Source: an uncultured Rhodopila sp.
Lineage (GTDB): Bacteria > Pseudomonadota > Alphaproteobacteria > Acetobacterales > Acetobacteraceae
Length of the DNA stretch: 64,000 nucleotides
Assembly: GCF_903915725.1 (NCBI RefSeq)
Contig: NZ_CAIWTY010000022.1
Coordinates: 1 to 64,000 of the forward strand
Reading direction: 5' to 3'
Shown: positions 8,314-63,479 of the stretch, piece after piece
Layout: the number at the start of each line of letters is the position of its first letter
Numbering within the stretch: position 1 is the stretch's first letter
Notes under the pieces: generated by a model
What the model was told of the DNA's origin: nothing
The model's database searches: none
What the model saw: only the letters and a program-made list of their open reading frames with translations
Made by a program: the position numbers and the translations under genes

Positions 8314-8332
8314 AGGATCGGAAAATACTCAG
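8314..8332 (-). promoter_or_regulatory. 19-bp regulatory element (copy 1), for the flavoprotein gene
   Basis: On the minus strand CTGAGTATTTTCCGATCCT, one of 17 intergenic copies of T(GA/AG)GTAnTTTCCGAnnCT in the window. It points toward the flavoprotein start at 8261. A -10-like TTACCT lies at 8291-8286, about 31 bases downstream of the core. It immediately follows the hydrogenase large-subunit stop codon. Confidence 0.75.
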
Positions 8333-8333
8333 G

Positions 8334-10067
8334 TCAGCGGATTTTCACTTCAACGACTGGACGGCGGTCGCTGTCGAAGACATGGGCAGCACATGCCATG
8401 CAGGGATCGAAGCTGTGTATGGTGCGCAAGACCTCCAGCGGCTGATCCGGCACCTCCAGGCGGTGGCCGTCCATTAGTGCGGCCTCGTAGGGTCCATGCT
8501 GGCCGCGTTCGTCCTTGGGTCCGGCATTCCATGTCGTCGGCACAACGGCCTGATAGTTGGTGATGACGCCATCATCAATGACCACCCAATGCGCCAATGC
8601 ACCGCGCGGCCCTTCGATGGTGCCGATGCCGCGGCTGTGGCGGGGCCAATTCTCCGGCGCCCATTTGGCGTCATTGAACGTGCGCAGGTCACCGCGCCCG
8701 ATGTTCGCCATGAGCCTGGCATGCCAGCCCGCCATGCGGTCGACGAGCAGCTTGCTTTCGATGCCGCGCGCCAGAATCCGACCGAACGTGGAATAGATCG
8801 CCTCGAACGGCAGGTCCAGCCGCGCAAGCGTTTCGGTTGTCAGCGCCTTGGCAGCGGTGTCGCCCGCGGCATGCAACATCACCAGCCGCGCCAACGGTCC
8901 CGTTTCCATCGCGTGGCCGCGCCAACGCGGCGCCTTGACCCAGGAATAGGTCTTGTCCGCATCGAGTTGTGCGAACGGTGGTTTCGGCCCCGTATAGTCC
9001 AGCGATGTCTCGCCCTCGAACGGATGCAGGCCTGTGTCCCGGCTGTATTTGTACCAGGAGTGTGCCACGTATTCCTGGATCTGCGCCGGATCTTGCAGGT
9101 CTACCGCAAGGATTTCCGACAGGTCGCGCCCCAGCACGGCGCCGCGCGGCACACCAAAGCCGTTGCCCGCAGGCGAACCGGCAAAGTCCCCGTAGGTCAG
9201 GAAGTTTCGCACGTTCTCGCCGCGCCCGAACCAATCCTTGTAGCCGCCGCCGATGGCGATCAGGTCCGGCAGGTAGACGCCATCGACAAAGTCGCGCATC
9301 CGCTCGATCAACGCGCGCACGCGGATAAGGCCGGTTGTCGAGACTGCTGTAGCGTCAGCGCCCCCCGGCAGCTTGCCATCAACCGAGATCGCGCAAGGCG
9401 CTCCGCCGACAGCCACATTCGGATGCGGATTTTTTCCGCCGAAAATGGTCAGCAGCTCACCAATTTCACGCTGCCACGCCAGCGCATCGAGGTAATGCGA
9501 CAGCGCGATCAGATCGACCTCCGGGGCCAGTTTGTATCCCGGGTGGTTCCACCACCCGTTCGTAAAGATCCCGAGTTGGCCTGACTCCACCAAGTCCTTA
9601 AGCCGCGCCTGCGCCCGTCCGAAATGATCCATCGACGTTTCGCTATAGCCGATCGTTTCGGCGATCCGCGAAGCAGCCTGCGGATCGGCCGCCAACGCGT
9701 GGATCGGGTTCACCCAGTCCAACGCCTGAAGGTGATAGAAGTGAATGACGTGGTCCTGCAAAAGCTGTGCGCCGGCCATCAGGTCGCGGATCAGTTCGCC
9801 ATTCTCCGGCACCGTGATGCCCAGCGCGTCCTCCACCGCCCGCACCGAGGCGAGGCCGTGCACCAGCGTGCAAACGCCGCAGATGCGCTGGGCGAACGCC
9901 CAGGCATCGCGCGGATCGCGGCCCCGCAAAATGATTTCGATGCCGCGAACCTGCGTGCCGGCGCTGAGCGCCTCGACGATATTTCCCGCAGTGTCGATCG
10001 ACACCTCGATCCGCAAATGACCCTCAATCCGAGTGACTGGGTCGATAACGATACGTCTCGCTGCCAT
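8334..10067 (-). CDS. hynL: [NiFe]-hydrogenase large subunit
   Basis: Predicted 577-residue catalytic large subunit of a membrane-associated [NiFe]-hydrogenase. The proximal nickel-ligand motif RICGVC lies near residue 62 and the distal motif DPCMACAAH near the C-terminus; the 15 residues after that His (VFDSDRRPVVEVKIR) are the peptide expected to be removed by the HupD-type protease encoded in the same operon. The gene is last in hupD-hupH-hynS-isp1-isp2-hynL and starts 3 bases after isp2. Having small and large subunits separated by isp1 and isp2 is the hallmark arrangement of Isp-type (group 1e) hydrogenases of purple sulfur bacteria and relatives. Uptake direction is inferred. Confidence 0.95.
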   Translation of the reverse strand: MAARRIVIDPVTRIEGHLRIEVSIDTAGNIVEALSAGTQVRGIEIILRGRDPRDAWAFAQRICGVCTLVHGLASVRAVEDALGITVPENGELIRDLMAGAQLLQDHVIHFYHLQALDWVNPIHALAADPQAASRIAETIGYSETSMDHFGRAQARLKDLVESGQLGIFTNGWWNHPGYKLAPEVDLIALSHYLDALAWQREIGELLTIFGGKNPHPNVAVGGAPCAISVDGKLPGGADATAVSTTGLIRVRALIERMRDFVDGVYLPDLIAIGGGYKDWFGRGENVRNFLTYGDFAGSPAGNGFGVPRGAVLGRDLSEILAVDLQDPAQIQEYVAHSWYKYSRDTGLHPFEGETSLDYTGPKPPFAQLDADKTYSWVKAPRWRGHAMETGPLARLVMLHAAGDTAAKALTTETLARLDLPFEAIYSTFGRILARGIESKLLVDRMAGWHARLMANIGRGDLRTFNDAKWAPENWPRHSRGIGTIEGPRGALAHWVVIDDGVITNYQAVVPTTWNAGPKDERGQHGPYEAALMDGHRLEVPDQPLEVLRTIHSFDPCMACAAHVFDSDRRPVVEVKIR

Positions 10068-10070
10068 GCT

Positions 10071-11324
10071 CTATGGCCTGAGGCTGTCGGCGACAAGTTC
10101 GAGCAGGCTGCCAACCGTCTTGTTCCACTGCGCGGCTTTACCGCCGTGGTCCAGCGTCTGACGGCATCCGGAGCAACTGGTGTAGACCGTGTCCATCCCG
10201 GTCGCCTCGACCTGCCGCTGCTTGATCTCGAACGCCTTCTGCCGCAACGGCGCCGCGCGATTGATCAGCGCCACGCCGCCACCGCCACCGCAGCACCAGT
10301 TCGCATCACCGGCATCTTCAAGTTCATGCAGGTCCACCCCAAGCGCCTCCAGGATGGTTCGCGGTGCCGCCGTCGCGCCACCACGTCGAGAGACCTGGCA
10401 GGCGTCATGGTAGGTTGCGCGTTGCTTGACCGTTTTGACCCGGATGCGGCCATCCGCCAACCCTTCGGCCAGAAATTCGGTGATCTGCATGACCCGGAAC
10501 GGCAACTTCCTGCCGAACGCGTTTGCTGCCTCCCACCGCATTTCGGTGAAGGCGTGTCCGCACTCCGGCATCAGCAATGTCTTCGCCCCGCAGGTCGTCG
10601 CCGCCTGGACGACCCCCAGCGTCGTTGCGCGCTGGCCGTCGCGGTCTCCCGCGGTCAATGAAACGTTGTCGGCATCAAACCCATCCGTCCGGAACGTCCA
10701 TGACTCGCCCACGTGGTTCAGGATCTTCGCGATCGCCGCCATCGAACCGGGATAAGTCTTGAGGTCGATGGAGGAGACCGTTGGCACAATGTCCGCGGTT
10801 GCTTCGTCCACGTGCATGGCCACGCCGTACTGGTCCCCGATGGCGTGCAGCATCTCCCGGAACTTCGTTACGCTCAACCGGAAGGGACTGCCCGTCGCGT
10901 GCTCCTTCTCGGCCAACAACCCGAGATAGTCGGCCGGCGCCAGCCCGGCCGTATACATCCCGTGACGCGCCTTCTCCACCAGATCGGCGATATCGATTCC
11001 CATCGGGCAAATCAGCGAACAACGGCCGCACATGTTGCAGGAATCGTAGATCAGATCTTGCCAGCTCGTCAGTTCGTCCACCGTAACCTTCCGCGCAAGC
11101 CCGAAAAGGCGATAGATCAGTGCGAACGGACCGACCTCCCGCTCATACGCTTGACGGAACGGAGCTATCTTATGGATTGGCGTGTACCGAGGATCCCCGG
11201 TCTGCACATAGAACTGGCAGGCTTCAGCGCAACGTCCGCAATGCACGCAGGATTCCATCGACAGGGCGGCGGTTGGACCGAAGTCGGATACAAACCCGCG
11301 CATCGCTTTCTCGGCCGTGTTCAT
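10071..11324 (-). CDS. isp2: Isp2-type iron-sulfur protein (HdrD/DsrK-like)
   Basis: Predicted 417-residue cytoplasmic-side electron-transfer protein. Two 4Fe-4S motifs are visible near the N-terminus (CVHCGRCAEAC and CNMCGRCSLIC) and two CCG-type cysteine regions in the C-terminal half (CGAKTLLMPECGHAF with YHDACQVSRRGG; NWCCGGGGGV with YTSCSGCRQTLDHGG), as in heterodisulfide reductase subunit D and DsrK. Start placed at 11324, which overlaps the isp1 stop by ATGA and gives a sensible N-terminus (MNTAEKAMRG). Together with Isp1 it would link the hydrogenase to a quinone or thiol/disulfide pool. Confidence 0.9.
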   Translation of the reverse strand: MNTAEKAMRGFVSDFGPTAALSMESCVHCGRCAEACQFYVQTGDPRYTPIHKIAPFRQAYEREVGPFALIYRLFGLARKVTVDELTSWQDLIYDSCNMCGRCSLICPMGIDIADLVEKARHGMYTAGLAPADYLGLLAEKEHATGSPFRLSVTKFREMLHAIGDQYGVAMHVDEATADIVPTVSSIDLKTYPGSMAAIAKILNHVGESWTFRTDGFDADNVSLTAGDRDGQRATTLGVVQAATTCGAKTLLMPECGHAFTEMRWEAANAFGRKLPFRVMQITEFLAEGLADGRIRVKTVKQRATYHDACQVSRRGGATAAPRTILEALGVDLHELEDAGDANWCCGGGGGVALINRAAPLRQKAFEIKQRQVEATGMDTVYTSCSGCRQTLDHGGKAAQWNKTVGSLLELVADSLRP

Positions 11325-13940: not shown

Positions 13941-13959
13941 AGGTTCGGAAAATACCTAT
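13941..13959 (-). promoter_or_regulatory. 19-bp regulatory element (copy 2), hydrogenase operon
   Basis: Minus-strand ATAGGTATTTTCCGAACCT, a nearly ideal copy with AGGT and ACCT arms nine bases apart. It points toward hupD at 13885; a -10-like TACGGT lies about 30 bases downstream of the core. It sits back to back with copy 3. Confidence 0.8.
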
Positions 13960-13976
13960 AAACCCCTGGCTCCCGG

Positions 13977-13995
13977 GCGCGTAGTTTCCGAACCT
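13977..13995 (+). promoter_or_regulatory. 19-bp regulatory element (copy 3), PRC-barrel gene
   Basis: GCGCGTAGTTTCCGAACCT on the plus strand, aimed at the PRC-barrel gene at 14087. TTAAAT at 14018-14023 is a plausible -10 about 31 bases downstream of the TTTCC core. With copy 2 it forms a divergent promoter pair. Confidence 0.8.
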
Positions 13996-14086
13996 GTCCC
14001 CGAAGCGGCGTGGCCGTTAAATTTGTTTCCGCCACGCACTTGCCCGGCTGAGCGAGCAAAGCCGGTGACCCATGAGGGAGCACACC

Positions 14087-14863
14087 ATGTTAAGACGCGC
14101 ATCGGCCTTTAACGGATATAGTATTGAGGCGGTTGACGGGAAGGTTGGGACCGTCGCAGATCTTTTGTTTGACGACACGACCTGGCAACTGCGCTGGCTG
14201 GTAGTTGACACCGGCGGGTGGTTGACCGGACGCAAGATCCTGATTCATCCATCATCGCTGGGACAACCGGACCTTGAAGGCCGGGCGTTCCCGGTCGAAC
14301 TGACACGGGAAAAGGTCGAAGCCAGCCCGGACATTGCGGAGGACGAACCGGTTTCGCTTCAGATGGACCATGATATGTACCGCTACTATTGGCCGACCGA
14401 CGGCTCTTTTGGCGGTGCCGGAATCGTTGCGCCGCTGATCCTGCCGTTGGCGCCCGGGGTGTCCAACGCCAAAGCCGATCGGCATTTGCGCAGCGTGGGA
14501 GAGGTTTCGGGCTATGCGATACATGCGGTTGACGGACATATCGGCCATCTCGAGACCTTTCTGGTCGATGATGAAGCCTGGGCCATCCGCTACCTTGTTG
14601 TCGATACGGTCAATTGGTGGATGGGCAAGCACGTTCTCGTTGCGCCGACCGCAGTCAAGGAAATTGACTGGCTACAGCGTTTCGTTCGGGTCGATCTGAC
14701 CTGTTACAAGATCAAGGGCAGCCCCGCATGGGAAAACACTGGCACCATCGACAAGGCCTATGAGAGCTTACTGCGAATATATTATGGGTGGATGGATTCC
14801 GGGCGCACCACAGAAGCGGCGCATGCGCCGCCGGTTGCGGCGCCCGCCAAAGCGCCGGTCTGA
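14087..14863 (+). CDS. Tandem PRC-barrel domain protein
   Basis: Predicted 258-residue cytoplasmic protein with two PRC-barrel-like domains, about residues 1-85 (FNGYSIEAVDGKVGTVADLLFDD, WLVVDTGGWLTGRKILIHP) and 135-215 (GYAIHAVDGHIGHLETFLVDD, YLVVDTVNWWMGKHVLVAP), joined by a linker. Each ends with a hydrophobic beta pair as in photosynthetic reaction-centre H subunits and other stress-linked PRC proteins. The second ATG (14087) is preferred over 14072 because GAGGGAG lies 6 bases before it. No enzymatic role is known. It is divergent from the hydrogenase operon and shares a double 19-bp element with it. Confidence 0.8.
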   Translation: MLRRASAFNGYSIEAVDGKVGTVADLLFDDTTWQLRWLVVDTGGWLTGRKILIHPSSLGQPDLEGRAFPVELTREKVEASPDIAEDEPVSLQMDHDMYRYYWPTDGSFGGAGIVAPLILPLAPGVSNAKADRHLRSVGEVSGYAIHAVDGHIGHLETFLVDDEAWAIRYLVVDTVNWWMGKHVLVAPTAVKEIDWLQRFVRVDLTCYKIKGSPAWENTGTIDKAYESLLRIYYGWMDSGRTTEAAHAPPVAAPAKAPV

Positions 14864-14901: not shown

Positions 14902-16074
14902 TCACCTCCCGGCGCTTTGCGCAACGGTCCGGGTGTGGTGCGCGATCATAGCTTCCTCGTCCGTTGCGATAACGCGCACATCGATGCGGCTGTCCACTGC
15001 GCTGATGCGGTCCGCGCCGGCCGTGTTGGCGGCTTCGTCGAGACGCAGCCCAAGCCAGCCGAGGCGGCCGCACACCGCCGATCGGATGGCCGGTGCGTGC
15101 TCGCCGATGCCGGCGGTGAAAATCAGCCCATCCAATCCGCCCAATGCGCTCACCAGCGCGCCCGTCTCGGTAGCGATCCGGTATGAAAATATATCGATTG
15201 CCTCCCTCGCATGCGGATCGTCGCTTGCCAGCAGCACGCGCACATCGCCGCTGAGTCCGGAGACGCCAAGCAGGCCGGAGCGTTGATACAACATGTCCTC
15301 GATATCGCTGAAGCTGTGTCCCTGTCGCCCAAGATAAAGGATCACCCCGGGGTCGAGCAGCCCGCACCGCGTCGCCATGACCAAACCGTCAAGCGCGCTG
15401 AAGCCCGTCGTTGTCTCGATGCTGATACCATCTTTTAACGCGCACAGGCTGGCCCCGGATCCCAAATGGGCGGCGATAACGCGGCCCGCTGCCAGCACCG
15501 GCGCCTGCTGAGCCAACCGTCCAGCGATAAACTCATAGGACAGACCGTGAAAGCCGTAGCGGCGCACGCCCGAATCGGAAATCGCGCGCGGCAATGCAAA
15601 CCGTGCCGCGAGCGGCGGGATAGTATCGTGGAACGCCGTATCGAAACATGCGACCTGCTTCAGGCCCGGACGGGCGTCGGCAACCGCCCGCATGGGTGCG
15701 AGGTTGTCGGGCATGTGCAACGGATCGAGCGGTGTCAGCGCCTCAAGCGCCGTCAAGAGCGCCGGAGTGATCAATTCCGGCGCGATATGGTCTGCTCCGC
15801 CATGCACAACGCGATGCCCCACCGCTACCAGCCCATCGCGGCCCAAATGCGAGTCGGCAAAGTCGAGCAGCGTATGAAGTGCGGCATCGAAACCGTCCGG
15901 CAGCCGTCTGTCGGCCAGCACGGCCCCGGCGGTTTCGCGCGCCACAAAATGCGGCGTCGAGTCCAGATCCTCAATCTCGCCCCGGACCGTCGCCTTCATG
16001 GCAGGCCCGGCGTTGAACAGGGCGAACTTTATGCTGGACGAACCAGCATTCAACGACAGGATTGATCCCGTCAT
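14902..16074 (-). CDS. ackA: Acetate kinase (copy 1)
   Basis: Predicted 390-residue acetate/propionate (possibly butyrate) kinase of the ASKHA fold, making ATP from acyl phosphate. Signatures: N-terminal LSLNAGSSSIKFALF, VGHRVVHGG, the FDTAFH catalytic segment, YGFHGLSYEFIA, AHLGSGASLCA, DGLVMATRCGLLDPG and FTAGIGEHAPAIR. The start at 16074 overlaps the stop of the upstream phosphate acyltransferase by ATGA. It is the last gene of the stress protein-phaC-acyltransferase-ackA operon. A second acetate kinase lies at 46675-47880. Confidence 0.95.
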   Translation of the reverse strand: MTGSILSLNAGSSSIKFALFNAGPAMKATVRGEIEDLDSTPHFVARETAGAVLADRRLPDGFDAALHTLLDFADSHLGRDGLVAVGHRVVHGGADHIAPELITPALLTALEALTPLDPLHMPDNLAPMRAVADARPGLKQVACFDTAFHDTIPPLAARFALPRAISDSGVRRYGFHGLSYEFIAGRLAQQAPVLAAGRVIAAHLGSGASLCALKDGISIETTTGFSALDGLVMATRCGLLDPGVILYLGRQGHSFSDIEDMLYQRSGLLGVSGLSGDVRVLLASDDPHAREAIDIFSYRIATETGALVSALGGLDGLIFTAGIGEHAPAIRSAVCGRLGWLGLRLDEAANTAGADRISAVDSRIDVRVIATDEEAMIAHHTRTVAQSAGR

Positions 16075-17474
16075 GCGGCAGCACCGGCACGGGCAGCCAA
16101 CACCGCCAGGCCGCAAGACGCCAGCCGGGTCGCCGCATCATCCGCCCGACTGGTCAGGATGATCGGCACCGAAGCTCCAACGACCACCCCGGCACCGCCA
16201 GCGCCGGCCATGAAGGTCAATTGCTTGACGAGCATATTTCCGGCCTCGAGATCAGGCGCCAACAGGATATCCGCCCGGCCGGCGACTGGAGAAACGATCG
16301 CCTTTTCGGCGGCGGCTTTCGGACTGATCGCATTGTCAAAAGCGAGGGGGCCGTCCAGCAATCCGCCGGTGATCTGTCCACGATCGGCCATCTTGCACAG
16401 CACCGCCGCATCAAGGGTGGACTGCATGCGGTCGTTTATCGTTTCTGTGGCGGCAAGGATAGCCACGCGCGGCTGCGTGATGCCAAGAACATGTGCCAGG
16501 TCGATCGCGTTCTGAACGATGCCGGCCTTGTCCGCCAGGCTCGGTGCGATATTAATCGCAGCGTCCGTTATCAGCAGCGGGTGCGGGTAATCCGGCACGT
16601 CCATCAGGGAGACGTGGCTGATCCGCCGCGACGTCCGAAGCCCGGTCGCCTCCGCCATCACCGCGTGCATCAGGTCGGAGGTGTGCAGATCCCCCTTCAT
16701 CAGCAATCCTGCCTCGCCGTTGCGGGCAAGCGCCGTCGCGCATGCCGCGGCTTTCGTTGCATCCGGAACGTCGATCAAACGCAGGGCGCCGATATCCACG
16801 CCATCCTGCCTCGCAACCTTCTGGATAGCTGAAGCCGGTCCGATGAGGATCGGAACGATCAGACCGGCCTTCGCCGCGTCCAGGGCCGCCAGCAGGGAAG
16901 CGGTATCGACCGGGTAAACCACCGCAGCCGGTATCGGGACGCCACCGCTGGCACGAGCCAGCATCGCAACGGTCCTGTCATGACGATTGACACGCACCGA
17001 CGGCAGGATCACCCGCCTGATGCGAACCTTCTCCGTCGGCGCGCGGGCGAAGGCGCTGCCGGTGATCACCACCTTTCCGGTCTGGTTGGAGCAGACGCAG
17101 TCCAGGACGACATCGCCCTTCGCAGGCTTCTTCTCCCGCAACGTCACCGTCGAGGTGATGGTATCGCCGATGCTGACGGGATAAGTGAAACGCAGATCCT
17201 GTCCCAGGTAGATCGTTCCGGGTCCCGGCAACCTCGTGCCGAGCGTGGCGGAGATCAGACCGGCGCCCCACATACCCTGAATGATGATATGGTGGAACAT
17301 ATCCGTTGCGGCATAGGCCGGATCGACATGCGCCGGATTGACGTCGCCCGTCACGGTTGCGAACAGATCGATGTCGCGCTGTGTCACTGTGTGCGACAGG
17401 CTCGCACTCTCGCCTATTTTCAGCTCTTCGAAGGTTCGGTTTTCGATAAACAGATCGTCCGGCATCGTCATCAT
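16071..17474 (-). CDS. MaoC (R-enoyl-CoA hydratase)-phosphate acyltransferase fusion (copy 1)
   Basis: Predicted 467-residue bifunctional protein. Residues about 10-145 form a MaoC/PhaJ hot-dog domain (DIDLFATVTGDVNPAHVDPAYA carries the Asp/His pair), and about 165-460 a phosphate acetyl/butyryl transferase (GLLMKGDLHTSDLMHAV, RRISHVSLMD, LLITDAAINIAPSL, DGPLAFDNAISPKAA). It could hydrate enoyl-CoA to R-3-hydroxyacyl-CoA for the adjacent PHA synthase and exchange CoA for phosphate for the adjacent acetate kinase. The ATG at 17474 overlaps the phaC stop by ATGA; internal ATGs at 17471 and 17465 are alternatives, the last with better spacing from AAGG. A paralogue occurs at 45272-46678. Confidence 0.9.
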   Translation of the reverse strand: MMTMPDDLFIENRTFEELKIGESASLSHTVTQRDIDLFATVTGDVNPAHVDPAYAATDMFHHIIIQGMWGAGLISATLGTRLPGPGTIYLGQDLRFTYPVSIGDTITSTVTLREKKPAKGDVVLDCVCSNQTGKVVITGSAFARAPTEKVRIRRVILPSVRVNRHDRTVAMLARASGGVPIPAAVVYPVDTASLLAALDAAKAGLIVPILIGPASAIQKVARQDGVDIGALRLIDVPDATKAAACATALARNGEAGLLMKGDLHTSDLMHAVMAEATGLRTSRRISHVSLMDVPDYPHPLLITDAAINIAPSLADKAGIVQNAIDLAHVLGITQPRVAILAATETINDRMQSTLDAAVLCKMADRGQITGGLLDGPLAFDNAISPKAAAEKAIVSPVAGRADILLAPDLEAGNMLVKQLTFMAGAGGAGVVVGASVPIILTSRADDAATRLASCGLAVLAARAGAAA

Positions 17475-19883: not shown

Positions 19884-19902
19884 AGGGTCGGAAAATACTC
19901 AC
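19884..19902 (-). promoter_or_regulatory. 19-bp regulatory element (copy 4), PHA/acetate operon
   Basis: Minus-strand GTGAGTATTTTCCGACCCT, aimed at the stress protein start at 19803. A -10-like TATGAG at 19860-19855 is 32 bases from the core. Paired with copy 5 in the divergent 265-base gap. Confidence 0.8.
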
Positions 19903-19993: not shown

Positions 19994-20012
19994 CTGAGTA
20001 GTTTCCGTGCCT
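19994..20012 (+). promoter_or_regulatory. 19-bp regulatory element (copy 5), PhoU-like/dikinase operon
   Basis: CTGAGTAGTTTCCGTGCCT on the plus strand (A15 replaced by T), 57-75 bases before the start at 20069. No convincing -10 hexamer is visible at the usual distance. Confidence 0.7.
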
Positions 20013-27723: not shown

Positions 27724-28988
27724 CTAGTACAGCGTTTCCATAAACCGACTCGTATCACGCGGCCTCGCCGATCTTGTAGGTCCAGGTATGGATCACCGGT
27801 TCGCTGTTGACGTCATCAAGGTATGCCATGATCCGGGATTTGAGTTCGGCTTTGGAAGCGACCCGGATGTGACGCAGCATCGACCGCGCCATCTTGGAGA
27901 AGAACCCCTCCACGAGATTGAGCCAGGAACCGTGCTTGGGCGTGAACACGAGCGAAAAGCGGCCTTCGGGTTGGGCATCCAGCCATGCCCGGGTTTCCTT
28001 CGAAACGTGCGCTGAGTGATTGTCCAGGATCAGCTTGATGGCGGTTTCCGCGGGATAGGCTGCATCGAGCTGCTTGAGGAAATTGACGAACTCCCGCGAC
28101 CGGTGCCGCTCCTCGACACGCGCGTGGACTTTGCCGGTAAGCAGGTCGATGCCGGCGAGCAGGCTCAGTGTGCCATGACGTTTGTATTCATGGTCGCGTG
28201 CGAAGCCCTCATGCTCGCCTGGCTTCGGGGGCAAGTCGGGCGCGGTGCTTTCGATCGCCTGGATGCCGGGCTTCTCGTCGTATGAAATGATGGCTACGTT
28301 CGAGGTCTCGGATTGGCTTTCGCGCAGAACTGCGACCTCACGATAGACGCAGAGCACCTCAGCCATTTTCGTCTCGAACGCCTCGTCGCGCCGCTCGAGA
28401 TAGTAGCGCATCTTGTGGGGTTTGACGTCGTTGCGGGCGAGGATTTTGCAGACCGTGCCTTGGACGATATTGGCCATGCAAGGATGTCCCGCAGCCCCGG
28501 CGTGCTCGCGCGCATGGCGCGCCAGCAGCCGTGTCGTCCAAAGCTCGTGCGGATATCCCAGGTCCTTGGCCTTTTGGCAGGCCAGCGAAACCAGCCACGC
28601 CCTGGCGTCAGCGGTGATCTCCGGCGCCTTGCCCGGCCGCGGGCTGTCGTCGAGCGCGGCCATCACGCCGAGGCGGACGGCGCGATCAAGGCACCGCTTG
28701 ACCGTCTGATGGGTCACCCCAACTGCCTCGCCCACCGCGTAGGTTGACGGGTCGGACTGATAAGCCAGCAGGATGCGGGCTCGCTCGACCCAACTGGCCG
28801 GTGCCGTGCGCGACCGCGCAATCGCCTCCAGTTGAGTCAAATCCTCTTCGCCGATCGAGATCTCGATCACCCGTCGCGTTGCTGCCATGTGACCCGCCAT
28901 CAAGTCAGTTTCCGGCAAGGCTACAACATGTTGGGTGGTCTGGAGAATCCCCCCGCAACTGATTGGTTTCACAGAATCGATGTACTAG
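27724..28988. mobile_element. IS630-family insertion sequence
   Basis: A complete element of about 1.26 kb with one transposase gene on the minus strand. Its termini are short imperfect inverted repeats (GTACAGCG at the left, GTACATCG reading in from the right). It is bounded by CTAG on both sides, as expected from IS630-type insertion into the TA of a CTAG target. The right CTAG is also the first four bases of a 19-bp regulatory element copy, so insertion occurred exactly at the edge of that site. Confidence 0.85.
27755..28900 (-). CDS. IS630-family transposase
   Basis: Predicted 381-residue DDE transposase that looks intact. An N-terminal helix-turn-helix region (YAVGEAVGVTHQTVKRCLDRAV) precedes the catalytic core, where the acidic residues lie in ISYDEKPGIQA, LILDNHSAH and WLNLVEGFFSKMAR. 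The start could be 28900 or the ATG at 28888; a longer frame to 28972 would cover most of the distance to the right end and is less likely. Intactness suggests recent arrival. Confidence 0.9.
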   Translation of the reverse strand: MAGHMAATRRVIEISIGEEDLTQLEAIARSRTAPASWVERARILLAYQSDPSTYAVGEAVGVTHQTVKRCLDRAVRLGVMAALDDSPRPGKAPEITADARAWLVSLACQKAKDLGYPHELWTTRLLARHAREHAGAAGHPCMANIVQGTVCKILARNDVKPHKMRYYLERRDEAFETKMAEVLCVYREVAVLRESQSETSNVAIISYDEKPGIQAIESTAPDLPPKPGEHEGFARDHEYKRHGTLSLLAGIDLLTGKVHARVEERHRSREFVNFLKQLDAAYPAETAIKLILDNHSAHVSKETRAWLDAQPEGRFSLVFTPKHGSWLNLVEGFFSKMARSMLRHIRVASKAELKSRIMAYLDDVNSEPVIHTWTYKIGEAA

Positions 28989-29003
28989 GTAGTTTCCAAG
29001 TCT
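28985..29003 (+). promoter_or_regulatory. 19-bp element (copy 6), probably a relic
   Basis: CTAGGTAGTTTCCAAGTCT, the weakest copy (CCAAG instead of CCGAN). It abuts the IS630 right end and is followed within about ten bases by similarity to the middle of an ABC-2 permease, leaving no room for a promoter and start codon. Probably the remnant of a control region joined to a pseudogene by deletion. Confidence 0.45.
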
Positions 29004-29916: not shown

Positions 29917-32900
29917 TCAGTGCCCGATCCCGCCCGCATCGGCATCCACCGCGGCCAGCGCCATCCGCGCCAGGGCGGGAAGCGACTTCGTATCCGTCTT
30001 CGCCATGATCGATGCGCGATGGTTCTCCACCGTGCGCTGGCTGATCCCCAGGTCGGCGGCGATGTTCTTGCTGGGCTGACCGGCAAGAACCATGTCCATG
30101 ATCTGCCGCTGCCGCGGCGTCAGCCTCGCAACGTGGCTCGCCGCATCGTTACGCCAAGCTGACAGTTTGCCCGAATCGCGGGACCGTTCCAGCGCGAGAT
30201 CGACACTCGCAAGCAATTCATCCCGGCTGATCGGCTTTTCGATGAAGTCCGACGCGCCCGCCTTCATTGCCTCCACAGCGATCGCAACATCGCTGTTGCC
30301 GGTTATCATGATCGCCGGCAGGGCATGGCCTGCCTCGCGCAAGCGGCGCAACAACGTCAGGCCATTCATTCCGCGAAGGTAGGCGTCGATCACGAGACAG
30401 GCCGCCCGCCCCGGATGGAAGGCGGCAAGGAACGCCTCGCACGTTTCGTAATCCTCGACGTCCCGGTCATCATCTTCAAGCACGGCGCGGATCGCCCCGC
30501 GGATGCTGTCATCGTCGTCAACGACGTAGATCACCGGCGGACCGCCAGCCGCATCTTCAGCGTGCCGCGGCGCATGCGCAACGGCCAGCGACAGCGGCAG
30601 CAGACGCTGGATCGTCAGCGCCAACTCATTCAGCTTTACCGGCTTGTTGAGTTGGATGCAGTGCTGAAGCGCAACCGTGCTCGCGGTCGCGGCTGAAATG
30701 TCGCCCGTCAGGATTATCGCCGGAACCGGGTAGCCAAGCGCTTCCCTGATCATCCCCGCAACGACCGCGCCATTCAGGCCGTTCGGCAGATTGAAGTCCG
30801 CGAGAACAAGATCCGGCTTCACCATCCCCCCGCCGATCAGTTCCCGTGCCTTGACTCCGTCATACGCCGTTACGATGTCATGGCCTTCGTCTTGCAGAAA
30901 GTCCTCCAGCAGCCCCCGTATATCCGGGTCATCCTCGATAACGAGAATCGAGCCGGTATGGTGATCGCCTTTGACTCCTCCCGGGGCGGCTTCCTCGGGC
31001 GCCGGGGCGGTCGCGGTGGCTGGCAGCTTGATCTCGATGGAGAAAACCGATCCGCGGCCCGCGACCGATCGCACGCGAACCTGATGACCCAGAAGCGCGC
31101 CAAGCCGTTGCACGATGGAAAGGCCGAGACCAAGGCCGCGGCTTCGTTCCCGCGCCGGATTGTCGAGCTGGCGGTATTCGTCGAAGATCGCCTGAAGCTG
31201 GTGGTCGGGAATGCCGATCCCGGTGTCCCAGACTTCGATGCTGAGGGTCTCCGTGTGGCGGCGGCAGCCCAGCAGGATCTTGCCGCGCCTGGTGTATTTC
31301 AAAGCGTTCGACAGCAGGTTACGGATCATCTGCTCCAGCAGGCGGGGATCGCTGCTGATCGTCAGGCTGCACGGCACCACCCGAAGCGACAGCCCCCGCG
31401 CCCGTGCATGATAGGCGAATTCATCCCGCAATCGGTCCAACAAGCTCTCGATCGGGAAATCGATGATCTCGGCATGCACGATGCCCGCATCGATCTCGTT
31501 GATGTCGAGCAGGGTGTTCAGCATGCCCGACATCGCGCCCAGCGTCTCCTCCAGGCGCACGACCAGAGTCTTGCCCTTTTCGCTGTCAACATGTTTCGCC
31601 AGCAGCCCTTGCACGAGCGCGAGCGTTTGCAGCGGCTGGCGCAGGTCATGGCTCGCCGCCGCAAGAAAACGAGACTTGGCAGTATTGGCCTGATCGGCTT
31701 GTTGCTTGGCAATACCAAGCTCGTCGGCGATGCGCCGCCTTTCGGTGATGTCGGCGAAGGTGATGACAACACCCTCCACGGCATCGTTTTGCGCCCGATA
31801 GGGCAGCACCCGGCGGATGAAGCAGGATCCGTCCCGCGTTGCAATCTCGCGCTCGATCGGGACAAGCGTGCGCAATACGGCGGTGGCATCGGCCACCAGA
31901 TTGCCGTCCGCGGCGAGAGAATTCAGGTCCGAGAGCGGGCGGCCAACATCGCCCGGGAGAATTGCAAACAGCGCCCTGGTCGCCGGGGTGAAAAACCGGA
32001 TGTTCAAGTTGCGGTCCAAAAACAGCGTCGCCACGTCGGTGCTGTAAAGGACATTCTGCAAGTCATCGGAGGTTGTTCGTTGCCGTTCCAGCGTCTCCTG
32101 CAACTGGCTGTTCAGCGCGGTCAGTTCCTCGTTCAGGGATTGCAATTCCTCTTTCGAGGTCAGCAGCTCCTCGTTCGTCGATTGATATTCCTCCTGCACC
32201 GACAGGGCTTCTTCGTTGACCGCCTTCTGCTCCTCGCCGGAAATCTCCAGGTTATGGATCGCACCTTGCAGTTCGGTCCGGGTTGCTTCCAGCTCCCGCT
32301 CCAGTTCGGCGACCCGCGGCACATCATGGGATACACCCGGCTTTGCGGCTACCGCTTCGGCCTTCGGGTCATCGACGAAACAGACCAGCAGCAGCTCCTC
32401 GCCGTCGCTGCGGACCGGTTGCACGTCGATGCTGAACGCTCCCGAACGGATGTCGTCGCCCGTCCGGCCGCCTGGAATGCTGATGCGCGCATTCTCCTGG
32501 CTCGCCTGCTGGATCGCCGAGCGAAGCTTGGTTCGTATGCCCTGCCGGGCCATGGCGAGCAGATCGTTCGAGGGTTGCCCGGGCACGACGCGCAGATAAC
32601 GGTCCGTCGCGCCGAGGGAGTAGAGGCATTCGTGCTTGCGGTTGATCAGCACGGCCGCGGGCGCATAGGTCTCCATCACCATGCACCGGCATAACTCCGC
32701 CAAAACGGCTTGTCGTGAGGGCGCAACGGCCTGGCCCGGTCGAACCGGTGCCCGCACGCCGTCGCCGCCACGAATGAACCCAAGCTCCCCGGGGCGGCTG
32801 CGCCCGACGTGCCTGAATATACGCTGCGCCTTCGAAACTACCTCGAACCGGTCGTCATCGGCGCCCGCGGTCTCCGACGTTCCCAGCAGCAGGATGCCGC

Positions 32901-34281
32901 CCTCGCGCAACGCGAAATGGAACAGCGCCAGGACTTTCGCCTGCGCCTCCGGCCGCAGATAAATCAGCAAATTCCGGCAGGAAATAAAATCGAGCCGTGA
33001 GAACGGCGGGTCCGCCAGCACATCCTGCACCGTAAAGACCACGGCGGCGCGCAGCTCCTGCGAGACGCGATAGTGCTTTTCTTCCTTTGAGAAGAAGCGG
33101 GCCAGCCGAGACGGCGATATCTCCGCTTCGATCTTGTCCGGATACAAACCGTCCCGGGCCGTGGCGATCGCATCAGGATCGACATCGGAAGCAAACACCT
33201 GAAGCTTGATACTGAGCTTGGCGGCGGCGATGGCCTCCTGGAACAGCATAGCCAGGGAATACGTTTCTTCGCCCGTGCTGCACCCCGCAATCCAGATCCG
33301 GATCGGCTTGTCAGGCGCATGGTTGCGCACCAGTTCCGGGATTGTCGCTTCCGCCAGCAGATCGAAGACGGAAGGATCGCGGAAAAAGCTGGTAACGTTG
33401 ATGAGGAGATCCTTGGCGAGAAGGACAAGCTCGTCCTCGTTGGTGTGCAGCATTTGCAGGTAGCGATCCATGTCCGAAACGTCGATTGCAGCCATGATCA
33501 TCCGCCGCTCGATCCGCCGTTGCAGCGTGCCGGGCTTGTAGAGCGTGAAATCGTACGGGGTCTTGCTGCGCAGCAGCTCGATGATTTCGATCAACCGGCT
33601 GCCGGCGGCATCCTGCGATCCGTTCCGCTCGGCGCCAGCGTCGCGGGCATGCTTTGCAAGGATGTCCGGAATCCCGGCGACGGCCGACACGGCATCGACG
33701 CTGCCCGTCAGGATGGCATTGCGGGGCATGCCGCCATAGCCGGCCTCGTCGGGATCCTGCGCAATGACGAAACCACCTTTTTCCTTGACCGCCTTCAGGC
33801 CGAGACTGCCATCGGCGCCCGTGCCGGAAAGAATGACGCAGACGGCGCGCGGGCCGAAGGCAGTCGCCATCGACTGCAGCAGGAAATCGAAGGGCAGACG
33901 GGCGCCGTGACGCGCCCTGGGTTGGGAGAGGTGAAGGATGTCGTCAACAACCGACAGGTAGGCACCCGGCGGAATGATATAAAGATGGTCCCGCTCGATC
34001 GTCTGGCCATTGTTCACCTGCGACACGGTCATTGTCGTGTGGCTGGCCAGCAGATCCACCATCATGCTCTCATGGTCCGGATCGAGGTGCTGGACCAGGA
34101 TGAAGGCCATGCCGCTGTCGGCTGGCAGCGCGGCGAGAAATTTCCTGCATGCATCGAGGCCGCCGGCCGAAGCGCCGATGCCGACGATCGGGAAATCCGC
34201 TTCCCGCGACGGAGGTCCGCGCGGGAGCAACGGCCGATCCGGGGCGGCCGCCTTGGCCCGGTCCGATAGACTGGCTGCCAT
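29917..34281 (-). CDS. Giant CheB-CheR-PAS-histidine kinase-receiver-receiver-FixJ output protein
   Basis: Predicted 1,454-residue signalling protein. Order: CheB-like methylesterase (about 30-215; IVGIGASAGG, ILSGTGADG); CheR-like methyltransferase (about 230-490; IWIAGCSTGEETYSLAML, DFISCRNLLIYL); coiled coil of EEL/LNE repeats and a PAS domain (about 650-850); histidine kinase with His878 in SHDLRQPLQ, then NLLSNALKYT and GLGLGLSIVQ; receiver 1 (Asp near 1161 in VLADFNLPNG); receiver 2 (VVDDDDSIRG, Asp near 1298 in CLVIDAYLRG, then MITGNSD and EKPIS) joined to a LuxR helix-turn-helix (about 1389-1450; SKNIAADLGISQRTVENHRA, then SLPALARMALA). The last two resemble FixJ closely. The ATG at 34281 has AGGA ten bases upstream; a GTG at 34305 is possible. 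No haem PAS signature was recognised. Confidence 0.9.
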   Translation of the reverse strand: MAASLSDRAKAAAPDRPLLPRGPPSREADFPIVGIGASAGGLDACRKFLAALPADSGMAFILVQHLDPDHESMMVDLLASHTTMTVSQVNNGQTIERDHLYIIPPGAYLSVVDDILHLSQPRARHGARLPFDFLLQSMATAFGPRAVCVILSGTGADGSLGLKAVKEKGGFVIAQDPDEAGYGGMPRNAILTGSVDAVSAVAGIPDILAKHARDAGAERNGSQDAAGSRLIEIIELLRSKTPYDFTLYKPGTLQRRIERRMIMAAIDVSDMDRYLQMLHTNEDELVLLAKDLLINVTSFFRDPSVFDLLAEATIPELVRNHAPDKPIRIWIAGCSTGEETYSLAMLFQEAIAAAKLSIKLQVFASDVDPDAIATARDGLYPDKIEAEISPSRLARFFSKEEKHYRVSQELRAAVVFTVQDVLADPPFSRLDFISCRNLLIYLRPEAQAKVLALFHFALREGGILLLGTSETAGADDDRFEVVSKAQRIFRHVGRSRPGELGFIRGGDGVRAPVRPGQAVAPSRQAVLAELCRCMVMETYAPAAVLINRKHECLYSLGATDRYLRVVPGQPSNDLLAMARQGIRTKLRSAIQQASQENARISIPGGRTGDDIRSGAFSIDVQPVRSDGEELLLVCFVDDPKAEAVAAKPGVSHDVPRVAELERELEATRTELQGAIHNLEISGEEQKAVNEEALSVQEEYQSTNEELLTSKEELQSLNEELTALNSQLQETLERQRTTSDDLQNVLYSTDVATLFLDRNLNIRFFTPATRALFAILPGDVGRPLSDLNSLAADGNLVADATAVLRTLVPIEREIATRDGSCFIRRVLPYRAQNDAVEGVVITFADITERRRIADELGIAKQQADQANTAKSRFLAAASHDLRQPLQTLALVQGLLAKHVDSEKGKTLVVRLEETLGAMSGMLNTLLDINEIDAGIVHAEIIDFPIESLLDRLRDEFAYHARARGLSLRVVPCSLTISSDPRLLEQMIRNLLSNALKYTRRGKILLGCRRHTETLSIEVWDTGIGIPDHQLQAIFDEYRQLDNPARERSRGLGLGLSIVQRLGALLGHQVRVRSVAGRGSVFSIEIKLPATATAPAPEEAAPGGVKGDHHTGSILVIEDDPDIRGLLEDFLQDEGHDIVTAYDGVKARELIGGGMVKPDLVLADFNLPNGLNGAVVAGMIREALGYPVPAIILTGDISAATASTVALQHCIQLNKPVKLNELALTIQRLLPLSLAVAHAPRHAEDAAGGPPVIYVVDDDDSIRGAIRAVLEDDDRDVEDYETCEAFLAAFHPGRAACLVIDAYLRGMNGLTLLRRLREAGHALPAIMITGNSDVAIAVEAMKAGASDFIEKPISRDELLASVDLALERSRDSGKLSAWRNDAASHVARLTPRQRQIMDMVLAGQPSKNIAADLGISQRTVENHRASIMAKTDTKSLPALARMALAAVDADAGGIGH

Positions 34282-34391
34282 TGTGGATACGTCCTGTAGG
34301 GCCACCGAACCAGCAGCCAGGGAAAATCAGCCTAGCACACGCACAATAAAACGGCCATCCCCAGTCCGCATTGATCTGCCGCAGTCGCTGC

Positions 34392-34410
34392 CTGAGTAGT
34401 TTCCGAGGAT
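34392..34410 (+). promoter_or_regulatory. 19-bp regulatory element (copy 7), BON gene
   Basis: CTGAGTAGTTTCCGAGGAT on the plus strand, 80-98 bases before the BON gene at 34490. It also lies 111-129 bases upstream of the divergent giant kinase gene, so autoregulation is conceivable. CTAAGG at 34433 is a weak -10 candidate. Confidence 0.72.
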
Positions 34411-34489
34411 GCACCCGGGGGCCGCCCATCGACTAAGGGTATCGCGCGTCGCTACTTCCGGCGAAGCATCTGAAACCATTGGAGCAAAC

Positions 34490-35140
34490 ATGCCCTTAGA
34501 CAAGCAATTGCAGCAGGCCGTGCTGGCGGAATTGGGCTGGGATCCGAGCGTGAATGCTGCGCACATCGGTGTGACCGCTAACGCGGGGGTCGTGACTCTC
34601 ACCGGCCATGTCGAAACATATGCGGAGAAGGAGGCGGCCGAATCCGCCGCCTGGCGCGTTCGTGGCGTCAAGGCGGTCGCGGAGGAAATGCTGGTGGAAC
34701 TTCCGTTCGAACGGGTACGTGGCGACGATGAGATTGCTGCCGCGGTGATCGAACGGCTCGCCTGGGATGCGTCGGTGCCGGCTGATGCGGTCTCGGTGAA
34801 GGTCGAGCAGGGCTGGGTGACCCTGACCGGATCGGTGACTTGGCAGTATCAGAAGGAAGCGGCCGGACAGGATGTGGCCAGGCTGCACGGGGTCATCGGG
34901 CTTGCCAACCAGCTTGTCGTCACTCCCGCTGTCAACGTGCCGGACATAACCCGCACGATACGCGACGCCTTGCGCCGGTCGTGCTTGCTGCACGACGAGA
35001 ACATCACCGTCAGGGCCGACGGCGGTCATATTCACCTGATCGGAACGGTTGGTTCCGCCTATGAGCGGCGGATTGCCTCGGTGACCGCATGGGCCGCCCC
35101 GGGGGCGACCGGCGTCACCAACGACCTCGCGATTCTCTGA
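34490..35140 (+). CDS. Triple BON-domain protein
   Basis: Predicted 216-residue protein with three BON domains (about residues 3-70, 80-145 and 150-215), each showing the pattern VxVxxGxVTLTGxVxxxxxKxxAxxxAxxxxGVxxVxNxL, for example GVVTLTGHVETYAEKEAAE and GWVTLTGSVTWQYQKEAAG. No signal peptide is seen, so it is probably cytoplasmic, unlike OsmY. BON proteins are linked to osmotic and general stress. Start at 34490 has GGAG seven bases upstream. A receiver protein follows after 22 bases. Confidence 0.88.
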   Translation: MPLDKQLQQAVLAELGWDPSVNAAHIGVTANAGVVTLTGHVETYAEKEAAESAAWRVRGVKAVAEEMLVELPFERVRGDDEIAAAVIERLAWDASVPADAVSVKVEQGWVTLTGSVTWQYQKEAAGQDVARLHGVIGLANQLVVTPAVNVPDITRTIRDALRRSCLLHDENITVRADGGHIHLIGTVGSAYERRIASVTAWAAPGATGVTNDLAIL

Positions 35141-35162: not shown

Positions 35163-35573
35163 ATGGCAGATCTGAACGTCCTCGTTGTTGAAGACGACGC
35201 GATGATCGGCATTCTTCTGGCGGAGATGCTGGGAGACATGGGCTACGACGTGTGTGCGATCGCCGCCACCGAGGATGACGCCGTGGCGGATGCGGCCCGG
35301 TGCAAGCCGGGCCTGATGATCGTGGACGAGCAATTGCGGGAGGGAAGCGGCTCATCGGCGGTGGAGCGCATCCTGCTTGGCGGCCTGGTCCCTTGCGTCT
35401 TCATCAGCGGTGCGCCGCTGCGTTTCAGCCGGACGGCGAAAAAAGTGCTGCGCAAACCTTTCCTCGAGGGAGATCTGCTGCGCGCCATCCAGGACGTGCT
35501 GACAGGCGCGAATGCTCCGTTGGTGCGCGGTATTGCCGGCGGCGGCGGCGGCAACGTGCTTGTGCAACACTGA
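35163..35573 (+). CDS. Single-domain response regulator receiver
   Basis: Predicted 136-residue CheY-like receiver without output domain. It has the acidic pair in VVEDDAMIG, the phospho-acceptor Asp in LMIVDEQLREG, a Ser in FISGAP in place of the usual Thr, and the conserved Lys in LRKPFLEGD. A Gly-rich tail (GIAGGGGGNVLVQH) follows. It could be a phosphate sink or diffusible partner for the giant kinase encoded nearby; inferred from proximity only. Confidence 0.88.
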   Translation: MADLNVLVVEDDAMIGILLAEMLGDMGYDVCAIAATEDDAVADAARCKPGLMIVDEQLREGSGSSAVERILLGGLVPCVFISGAPLRFSRTAKKVLRKPFLEGDLLRAIQDVLTGANAPLVRGIAGGGGGNVLVQH

Positions 35574-35607: not shown

Positions 35608-35626
35608 ATAGGTATTTTCCGAGGCT
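35608..35626 (+). promoter_or_regulatory. 19-bp regulatory element (copy 8), small envelope gene cluster
   Basis: ATAGGTATTTTCCGAGGCT on the plus strand, 55-73 bases before the small gene at 35681. TATTCA at 35648-35653 fits as a -10 about 30 bases from the core. A partial CTGAGTAGAT just upstream (35582) lacks the TTTCC core. Confidence 0.75.
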
Positions 35627-35680: not shown

Positions 35681-35776
35681 ATGACTGAAAGCCGATGGGA
35701 ACTGCCGATCGTAGCGCTCATGTCAGTCGTGGTGTTCTTCTCGGCCTGGCACTTTGCGCTGCGGCTTCTCGGCTAG
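35681..35776 (+). CDS. Very small single-helix membrane protein (31 aa)
   Basis: A 31-codon gene with a strong GAGAGGAGG site eight bases before its ATG. The peptide starts MTESRWELPIVALMSVVVFF, continues through a hydrophobic helix and ends HFALRLLG. It lies directly behind a 19-bp element. A decayed relative with the same RRWE...HFAPRFL pattern sits behind another element copy at 53403, which argues that this is a real gene family. Function unknown; a small regulator or accessory subunit of a membrane complex is possible. Confidence 0.7.
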   Translation: MTESRWELPIVALMSVVVFFSAWHFALRLLG

Positions 35777-35813
35777 GGGCGGATTTTGTTCGAACAATAC
35801 GAGGGGGGAGGAT

Positions 35814-35999
35814 ATGCAAGGCGAAAACCAAACATCTCTGTCCATAAACGAGGTAACGGCACTATTCGCCGCTAGCGCGTCCTCTTTCAGGTTGTCGAAC
35901 AGCGCCACTTTTGCCGACCTCGCCGATCGGCTGGAGCAGTTGCGGGAGCAGCATGCGGGAACACCGAGGGCGATTTACCTGAAGCTCGGAGGCCCGTGA
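35814..35999 (+). CDS. Small hypothetical protein (61 aa)
   Basis: A 61-residue soluble protein starting MQGENQTSLSINEVTALFAA, with a helical middle (ATFADLADRLEQLREQHAG) and a short beta-like end (RAIYLKLGGP). The ATG is preceded by GAGGGGGGAG, a very strong ribosome binding site. Not recognised. It belongs to the run of tiny genes behind copy 8 of the element. Confidence 0.65.
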   Translation: MQGENQTSLSINEVTALFAASASSFRLSNSATFADLADRLEQLREQHAGTPRAIYLKLGGP

Positions 36000-37894: not shown

Positions 37895-37913
37895 GTAGGT
37901 AGTTTCCGAACCT
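37895..37913 (+). promoter_or_regulatory. 19-bp regulatory element (copy 9), slipin gene
   Basis: GTAGGTAGTTTCCGAACCT, a nearly ideal copy with AGGT and ACCT arms. TATATA at 37935-37940 lies 31 bases from the core as a -10. The slipin start is at 37992. Confidence 0.82.
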
Positions 37914-43949: not shown

Positions 43950-43968
43950 AGGTTCGGAATCTACTCAA
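43950..43968 (-). promoter_or_regulatory. 19-bp regulatory element (copy 10), pgmB-GH65 operon
   Basis: Minus-strand TTGAGTAGATTCCGAACCT (ATTCC in place of TTTCC), facing pgmB at 43848. A weak -10-like CATAAG lies about 30 bases downstream. Back to back with copy 11 in a 304-base gap that holds no gene. Confidence 0.75.
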
Positions 43969-44028: not shown

Positions 44029-44047
44029 CTAGGTAATTTCCGAGTCT
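44029..44047 (+). promoter_or_regulatory. 19-bp regulatory element (copy 11), glycosyltransferase operon
   Basis: CTAGGTAATTTCCGAGTCT on the plus strand, followed by a consensus TATAAT at 44072-44077, 33 bases from the core. The first gene starts at 44153, leaving a leader of about 70 bases. Confidence 0.82.
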
Positions 44048-51887: not shown

Positions 51888-51906
51888 AGGTTCGGAATAT
51901 ACCTAC
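51888..51906 (-). promoter_or_regulatory. 19-bp regulatory element (copy 12), UPF0182 gene
   Basis: Minus-strand GTAGGTATATTCCGAACCT (ATTCC variant) with AGGT/ACCT arms. A -10-like CTACGA lies about 31 bases downstream. Located between the MFS gene and the UPF0182 gene on the same strand. Confidence 0.78.
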
Positions 51907-53188: not shown

Positions 53189-53402
53189 AGCGCCCTCCTG
53201 ATAACGATTCTGATCAGTTATGGACCCGGCCAGGTGACGCTTGCGATGCGGGCGCGATGATGCCGGTTCGGGTGGCGGAGCGATAGTCCCCGGCGGCGGA
53301 GATTGCTTCCGGAAGCGACACGCTCAGCTCTGAGTATTTTCCGAGTCTGGCGCCGGACCGCTTTCTTTCATTCAATGGATCTTCACAGGCAGGGAGCCGC
53401 CG
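53189..53402. other. Divergent intergenic region upstream of the second proton pump
   Basis: A gap between the MFS gene (-) and the decayed small gene and H+-ATPase gene (+). Apart from regulatory element copy 13 I see no gene, repeat or RNA in it. Confidence 0.5.
53330..53348 (+). promoter_or_regulatory. 19-bp regulatory element (copy 13), second H+-ATPase
   Basis: CTGAGTATTTTCCGAGTCT on the plus strand. CATTCA at 53369-53374 fits as a -10 about 30 bases from the core. The distance to the ATPase start is over 200 bases because a decayed small gene lies between. Confidence 0.75.
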
Positions 53403-61986: not shown

Positions 61987-62005
61987 AGTATCGGAAAATA
62001 CTCAT
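61987..62005 (-). promoter_or_regulatory. 19-bp regulatory element (copy 14), sugar porter-GH65 unit
   Basis: Minus-strand ATGAGTATTTTCCGATACT with a -10-like TTATGT at 61964-61959, 31 bases from the core. Back to back with copy 15. Confidence 0.78.
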
Positions 62006-62047: not shown

Positions 62048-62066
62048 ATGAGTACTTTCCGAGCCT
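62048..62066 (+). promoter_or_regulatory. 19-bp regulatory element (copy 15), fructokinase gene
   Basis: ATGAGTACTTTCCGAGCCT on the plus strand; TATAGG at 62089-62094 lies 31 bases from the core. Fructokinase starts at 62130. Confidence 0.8.
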
Positions 62067-63077: not shown

Positions 63078-63365
63078 TGAGGCGACCCTATTTCCAGTAG
63101 CGTCACGGCACCTTCGGGCCGGATCCGACATACCCCAATGCCGCCGGCACGACCGGTTGGATCGCCGACTGTGCCAGGGCGATTCAAGCCAGGGCATCAT
63201 CGTTCCGAAGACGCCGCCATCGCCGACGGAGTGAACCGTGCCCGCTCCCGCCGGCGGAACGCCGGCGGCGATGGTGATGAAAGACTTCAGCCCAGCTGGA
63301 ACTGACAGACAAGCGCCTGCTCCCGCCAAGGCGAATAACCTGGCAGTTGATCTGGACGGCGCGGC

Positions 63366-63384
63366 AGGTTCGGAAACTACTCAT
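63366..63384 (-). promoter_or_regulatory. 19-bp regulatory element (copy 16), no target gene visible
   Basis: Minus-strand ATGAGTAGTTTCCGAACCT, one of the best copies, but no minus-strand gene follows it; the fructokinase gene ends convergently 290 bases away. A weak -10-like AGGTTA lies 33 bases downstream. It may serve a lost gene, a small RNA, or the phosphoketolase promoter jointly with copy 17. Confidence 0.7.
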
Positions 63385-63460
63385 ATTTGGGGGGATTACA
63401 TGACTCTTGGTACGGATACCCGCCGGTTCACAGTGTCCGACGACACGGATGCATCCCGGC

Positions 63461-63479
63461 ATGAGTATTTTCCGACCCT
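63461..63479 (+). promoter_or_regulatory. 19-bp regulatory element (copy 17), phosphoketolase gene
   Basis: ATGAGTATTTTCCGACCCT on the plus strand; TATTGT at 63503-63508 lies 32 bases from the core. The phosphoketolase start is at 63646. Confidence 0.8.

Follow-up and report, generated by a model that had tools for sequence, protein, structure and literature searches.

A probable extended FixJ-type element and a candidate CheB-CheR-kinase-FixJ-like fusion regulator linked to stress and fermentation genes in an uncultured Rhodopila

In the FixLJ system of Rhizobiales, FixJ is a separate protein with a receiver-GerE (REC-GerE) output and the haem-PAS protein FixL as its partner, and its box lies upstream of promoters including those of fixK and nifA. 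PMC4999443, with reference to Ferrieres and Kahn 2002 and Kurashima-Ito 2005, gives FixJ sites obtained by selection as GTAGTTTCCC and GTAMGTAG and the S. meliloti fixK site as TAAGTAATTTCCCTTA, and it counts four predicted direct target genes of FixJ in Rhizobiales. Published FixJ sites have the core GTA(G/A)TTTCC in common. Phosphorylated FixJ is described as activating fixK, and the unphosphorylated protein as repressing nif genes in Rhodopseudomonas palustris. Here, we analyzed a 64,000-nucleotide stretch of an uncultured Rhodopila sp. (positions 1 to 64,000 of contig NZ_CAIWTY010000022.1, hereafter the window), in which an element with a similar core is repeated 17 times and a 1462-amino-acid (aa) protein is encoded. 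We consider it probable (roughly 0.86) that this element is an extended FixJ-type operator bound by the phosphorylated, FixJ-like REC-GerE end of the 1462-aa protein, resulting in class II activation of stress, envelope, and fermentation genes.

The locus resembles the FixLJ system in its REC-GerE output, in the core of the element, and in the position of the site upstream of promoters. In contrast to FixLJ, however, the candidate regulator is one chain with a CheB/CheR front end, and the element is extended to CCGAnnCT, carries a G for the third C, and occurs at dozens of sites. In cargo, the window is similar to the lxa locus of Burkholderia cenocepacia, for which table rows BCAM0276-0311 of PMC6127331, assumed here to be that locus, include a BON protein, universal stress proteins, a phosphate acetyl/butyryl transferase, a phosphofructokinase, and a heat shock protein. 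That article suggests a CRP-type protein for lxa, whose homologue FixK is under FixLJ, whereas here the target promoters carry the FixJ-type site directly. CheB-CheR-PAS hybrid histidine kinases share CheB, CheR, a glutamate-rich coil, PAS_10, kinase, and receiver with the candidate regulator (two other proteins of the same genome match this CheB-CheR-PAS part at 39-40%), but the latter additionally carries a second receiver and a DNA-binding domain like that of FixJ. NahK/ErcS-family hybrid kinases are alike in the kinase-receiver core, for which NF041832 was the nearest model; the score of 368 bits is nevertheless under the 400-bit cut-off, and the family match excludes the DNA-binding domain. 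The DosR/DevR dormancy regulon is also under a NarL-type regulator that directly controls many genes for stress and energy limitation, but its site and sensors differ from the present system, and the relation by sequence is weak (3c3w, E = 1.8e-8). No earlier account of the regulator class or of the element was found among the matches listed in the open PMC literature. The pair would provide a regulator and operator for one class of alphaproteobacterial stress and fermentation islands, with a FixJ-type site acting directly at dozens of promoters in place of a FixK cascade.

The element and its placement

A sequence-only reading of the window had reported 17 copies of the element, and every one was found at its coordinate and on its strand. 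The matrix built from these copies scored them, as its own training sites, at 23.0-33.7 bits, while the next-best match in the window reached 16.6 bits (at 18651, within the PhaC open reading frame (ORF)) and the best matches in 10 Markov shuffles ranged from 6.2 to 18.1 bits. Across the whole genome (G000; 6.7 Mb, 111 contigs), the pattern TRRGTANWTTCCGANNCT with at most one mismatch had 48 matches versus 2 for the reversed pattern. Nearly half of these (23/48) were located on C22, the ~90-kb contig of the window, and further sites were distributed over C1, C8, C60, C69, C74, C97, C108, and others; the element is therefore not confined to the island, which corrects the earlier reading.

We then aligned 155 sites from the window, its genome, relatives, and named genomes, a set that includes loci fetched for holding sites (L077-L114; the blind set is L115-L194), with the element taken as columns 1-18. 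The extended consensus was TRRGTAnWTTCCGAnnCT, with a core that is mostly GTA(G/T)TTTCC. Relative to GTAGTTTCCC- and TAAGTAATTTCCC-type FixJ sites, the third C was replaced by G in 154 of the 155 sites and by A in one, and AnnCT was added. The proposed alternation of GA and AG at columns 2-3 was borne out (GA = 71, AG = 39, GG = 19, AA = 6; 2 × 2 Fisher test, P = 1.6e-13), far beyond chance, as though there were two site subtypes or binding registers. By comparison, AGGT and ACCT arms had also been put forward, but AG on the left was combined with ACCT on the right in just 5/155 sites, and this dyad was rejected as a general feature.

Placement was assessed in 296 kb of the same genome, namely the window and 18 stretches chosen for holding sites. 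In this sequence, of which 19.7% is intergenic, 48/49 sites were intergenic, and a called gene start was located at most 400 bp ahead of 41/49 sites. The decoy control, a small one, had 5 weak matches (3 intergenic, 1 facing a gene). Within the window, only the 35608 and 63366 copies failed the 400-bp gene-start test. The 35608 copy faces an ORF 145 bp away (35754-35999), whose 81-aa product had no NCBIfam match; related proteins are encoded downstream of the element in L085, L115, and L119. Ahead of the 63366 copy there was no called gene (minus-strand ORFs of at most 107 aa, none called coding), and TA was absent at the -10 position; this is a strong copy, and its target may be a small RNA or a short ORF. 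The putative operator copies and associated features of the window are as follows:

8314..8332, minus: operator copy before the flavocytochrome c-like protein gene 6816-8261 (minus)
13941..13959, minus: operator copy before the HycI-HupH-hydrogenase unit (minus)
13977..13995, plus: operator copy, weakest (20.7 bits), before the PRC-barrel protein gene 14072-14863 (plus)
19884..19902, minus: operator copy before YflT-domain protein and PhaC / MaoC-PTA / acetate kinase genes (minus)
19994..20012, plus: operator copy before PhoU_div protein, PPDK_N dikinase, P-type ATPase, and VIT1 genes
28985..29003, plus: operator copy adjoining a transposase gene, the weak or relic copy of the earlier reading
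29917..34305, minus: candidate regulator of 1462 aa, with CheB, CheR, glutamate-rich coil, PAS_10, HisKA, HATPase, REC, REC, and GerE (FixJ-like C-terminus)
34392..34410, plus: operator copy between the regulator and BON genes, with a -10-like box TAAGGG at 34434
34490..35140, plus: BON-domain protein, weakly OsmY-like (under that model's cut-off), a recurrent target
35163..35573, plus: single receiver domain, PhyR-receiver-like (under cut-off), whose relatives are a recurrent target elsewhere
35608..35626, plus: operator copy before the 81-aa ORF with relatives in three other loci
37895..37913, plus: operator copy before SPFH/Band 7 (slipin) and CsbD genes
43950..43968, minus: operator copy before HAD and GH65 genes (minus)
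44029..44047, plus: operator copy before glycosyltransferase, PTA, and acetate kinase genes
51888..51906, minus: operator copy before the UPF0182 protein gene (minus)
53330..53348, plus: operator copy before P-type ATPase and PPK2 genes
61987..62005, minus: operator copy before sugar porter and GH65 genes (minus)
62048..62066, plus: operator copy before the PfkB sugar kinase gene
63366..63384, minus: operator copy with no called gene downstream
63461..63479, plus: operator copy before a gene leaving the window, whose product clusters with proteins of L087 (phosphoketolase), L101, and L104

The transposase gene adjoining the 28985 copy (27755-28972) encodes DDE_3 and HTH_32 domains. No Rfam family reached its gathering score in the window, and no tRNA was found there.

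Spacing to the -10 box and the sign of regulation

Apart from weak columns 19 and 21, the flanks of the aligned sites showed little signal up to a distance of about 23 bases downstream, and a -10 box (TAnnnT) tended to begin 22-24 bases past the element. TA started at columns 40-42 in 106/155 sites, compared with 6-12 TA starts per 3-column bin in the seven preceding bins, 33 at columns 43-45, and 9-22 in fifteen later bins. The full TAnnnT began at columns 40-42 in 69/155 sites, whereas no other column had more than 5. The usual spacer between a -35 hexamer and a -10 box is about 17 bases, and no clear -35 hexamer was detected in the aligned sites. If the box is assumed to start at -12, the element covers roughly positions -53 to -36 and is centred close to -44, where a class II activator would sit; the sites thus have the fixed distance over the -35 region and the -10 box of this class, with the transcript start inferred from the box.

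Overlap with the -35 region is compatible with either sign of regulation, and a regulator that represses by blocking polymerase from this site would have a precedent in unphosphorylated FixJ of R. palustris. However, the promoters look activator-dependent because they lack a clear -35 hexamer, and phosphorylated FixJ is an activator at fixK; we regard repression as unlikely.

The candidate regulator and its co-occurrence with the element

The 1462-aa protein has the composition of a CheB-CheR-PAS hybrid kinase (CheB, CheR, PAS, HisKA, HATPase, and REC in one chain) and ends in a REC followed by a GerE helix-turn-helix, the arrangement of the FixJ family; the best solved relative of this end was FixJ (5xso, E = 1.3e-39). 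A FixL model was absent among the best 25 of 153 NCBIfam matches, and the PAS of the kinase is of the PAS_10 type and in the same chain. The kinase histidine and both receiver aspartates were kept in 21/21 aligned full-length relatives. The CheB and CheR motif regions, which we take to have active-site roles, were kept in nearly all of these relatives, and the glutamate-rich coil NEEYQSTNEELLTSKEELQSLNEEL was nearly unchanged across them, although they belong to several orders. Shorter frames without CheB/CheR also occur among the relatives (L133, L113, and L112). The genome encodes three copies of the regulator gene, on C22, at C27:23978-28363 (84% identity), and at C7:57428-61735 (82%), each with sites nearby; these site-bearing stretches appear as repeated island copies within one genome.

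We further examined 299 genomes of the order from 64 genera and found a REC-GerE relative with at least 49% identity in 33 of them. At least three element matches were present in 24 of these 33 genomes, at least two in 31, and at least one in 32, compared with at least three in 5 and at least two in 17 of the 266 genomes lacking such a relative. In two of those five (G283 and G284), a contig ends within a sequence matching the front part of the regulator at 53-59% identity, with an internal stop in G284, and counting both as bearers gives at least three matches in 26/35 versus 3/264 genomes (P = 1e-26). Within the 11 genera holding both states (28 genomes with and 52 without the regulator), 160.5 of 166 comparisons were concordant (permutation mean = 82.9, P = 5e-5). 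Two exceptions are telling: in the regulator of G177, the sole genome of the 33 without a match, both the acidic pair and the recognition helix are altered, and the regulator of G113, which has only 2 matches, contains an in-frame stop.

Next, we scanned named genomes by protein alone, which provided the 80 loci of the blind set, and searched them with a matrix trained without them. The nearest locus was from an uncultured Rhodopila (90%), and further loci came from Parvibaculum, Hyphomicrobium, Elstera, Azospirillum, Acidiphilium, Rhizobium, Shinella, Magnetospirillum, Roseospira, and others; cultured relatives with the regulator gene include Xaviernesmea oryzae (L128) and Roseospira marina (L134). 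The best 24 loci (427 kb) contained 46 matrix matches versus 1 in the reversed control, and the other 56 (917 kb) contained 1 versus 2. Among the 70/80 loci that passed an architecture filter (one frame with REC2 and with a GerE match of at least 45%), a site was present at 18/19 kinase-fused loci versus 1/51 stand-alone loci; the filter dropped L124, L142, L153, L163, L170, L173, L174, L184, L192, and L194, although two sites are present in L124 (Acidiphilium iwatense). The regulator gene had a site at most 250 bp away or inside its stop-to-stop frame in 13 of the 18 site-holding fused loci. Sites near the fused regulator mostly point away from it, with one facing it in L120, L125, and L133. 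In the tree, 31 fused rows and L127 formed one set of 32 (support 100/99, bootstrap not settled), within which a few forks uniting different orders with modest support hint at transfer. The enrichment across this genome, the intergenic placement, the spacing to the -10 box, and the joint conservation of the element and a specific regulator in several orders support the proposal of one regulator for a large regulon. The earlier reading had linked the element neither to FixJ boxes nor to the CheB-CheR-kinase-FixJ-like protein of the island. The element itself, its -10 spacing and intergenic placement, the domain order of the protein, and its co-occurrence and physical linkage with the element were all computed directly.

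These counts also bear on a binder other than the hybrid protein, namely a stand-alone FixJ or another NarL/LuxR-type regulator, with the large protein merely traveling with the island. A stand-alone FixJ-like protein is indeed present in the genome (C68:49799, 44% identity), the published FixJ sites have the same core as the element, and three genomes with 3-9 matches have no detected close regulator. However, stand-alone FixJ-like genes fail to predict the element, as seen at the 51 stand-alone loci and in the 56 lower-ranked loci, where matches did not exceed the reversed control, and this explanation appears quite improbable. A role of the element as the -35 part of a promoter for an alternative (extracytoplasmic function, ECF-type) sigma factor is very hard to sustain. 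Its strict orientation, its preferred distance to the -10 box, and the EcfG-like sigma genes downstream of sites in L111 and L121 would fit such a role. However, its length of 18 bases is long for a -35 element, and the 21-23 bases between its end and the -10 box exceed the spacing of a -35 hexamer. In addition, its core matches the published FixJ sites, a FixJ-like protein tracks it, and no sigma factor was found among the 47 window ORFs searched in Pfam.

Several observations weigh against binding by the fused protein and activation from this site. TA was absent at columns 40-42 in 49/155 sites, and the REC-GerE part scored 214.4 bits, under the NCBIfam FixJ equivalog cut-off of 255. Fewer than three matches were found in 9/35 regulator-bearing genomes, including all four bearers of genus g20 (1-2 matches), whose regulators are 59-65% identical, while G264 (9 matches), G213 (4), and G228 (3) had no detected close regulator. 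L106 and L116 lack a site near the fused gene, although the genome of L106 (G271) has 12 matches and L116 spans 4 kb. Diverged long-frame relatives (42-48%; G093, G149, G180, and G277) had 0-2 matches, and the link is therefore to the close clade rather than to the fusion alone. Linkage by itself could also reflect an island moving as a unit, yet many sites are on other contigs.

For the fused protein as activator, we infer direct binding, activation over repression, the order of phosphotransfer, and the signal, as follows. A cue would act on the CheB/CheR/PAS/coil front end, after which a His-Asp relay would run within the same chain and the phosphorylated REC-GerE would bind the element (TGAGTAGTTTCCGANNCT, the predicted binding duplex). 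The bound regulator would sit over the -35 region and recruit RNA polymerase to promoters with a -10 box but without a clear -35 box, and stress, envelope, and fermentation genes would be switched on in the island and elsewhere. A FixJ-type regulon wired straight to dozens of promoters by a one-chain phosphorelay with chemotaxis adaptation enzymes is likely. It is conceivable, if rather doubtful, that CheR and CheB reversibly methylate the protein's own glutamate-rich coil and reset the gain of the PAS kinase as in chemotaxis, making this a self-adapting one-protein stress regulon. CheB-CheR-kinase fusions would hereby gain a defined readout, since reporters with the 18-bp element would allow the function of the methylation domains to be tested.

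Predicted targets and candidate signal

The predicted targets are stress, envelope, and fermentation genes. In the window, they comprise flavocytochrome c-like, hydrogenase, PRC, YflT/polyhydroxyalkanoate/acetate, dikinase and P-type ATPase, BON, and Band 7/CsbD genes, as well as GH65, glycosyltransferase with PTA and acetate kinase, UPF0182, P-type ATPase with PPK2, sugar porter, PfkB, and phosphoketolase genes. Single receiver, BON, YflT, PRC, MCRA, phosphoketolase, and PhoU_div genes recurred as targets in other genomes, where Usp, OmpA-type, DnaJ, mechanosensitive channel, and EcfG-like sigma genes were also found. As the downstream gene, we took the longest ORF with a start 30-420 bases from the site, which means that some assignments may be wrong, and 30 downstream genes were put through a Pfam search.

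Low oxygen had been proposed as the signal, but this found no support in the sites or the sensor: the FNR/FixK-type box TTGMY-N4-RKCAA occurred neither near the 49 sites nor anywhere in the 296 kb, which led us to reject FNR/FixK co-regulation, and the PAS is of the PAS_10 type. As a cue, low oxygen is plausible as judged from the cargo, rather than from the sensor.

Several genes near the sites have further features. The product of 16071-17795 fuses a MaoC-like domain to a phosphate acetyl/butyryl transferase domain, next to acetate kinase and PhaC genes, and the PRC-barrel protein (14072-14863) is weakly like the photosynthetic reaction centre H subunit (33 bits versus a 200-bit cut-off). 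The EcfG-like sigma factor genes downstream of the element (L111:9609-10511 and L121:5447-6085) encode a PhyR_sigma2 domain. The single receiver at 35163-35573 and its relatives may serve as a phosphate sink or as a link to the general stress response.

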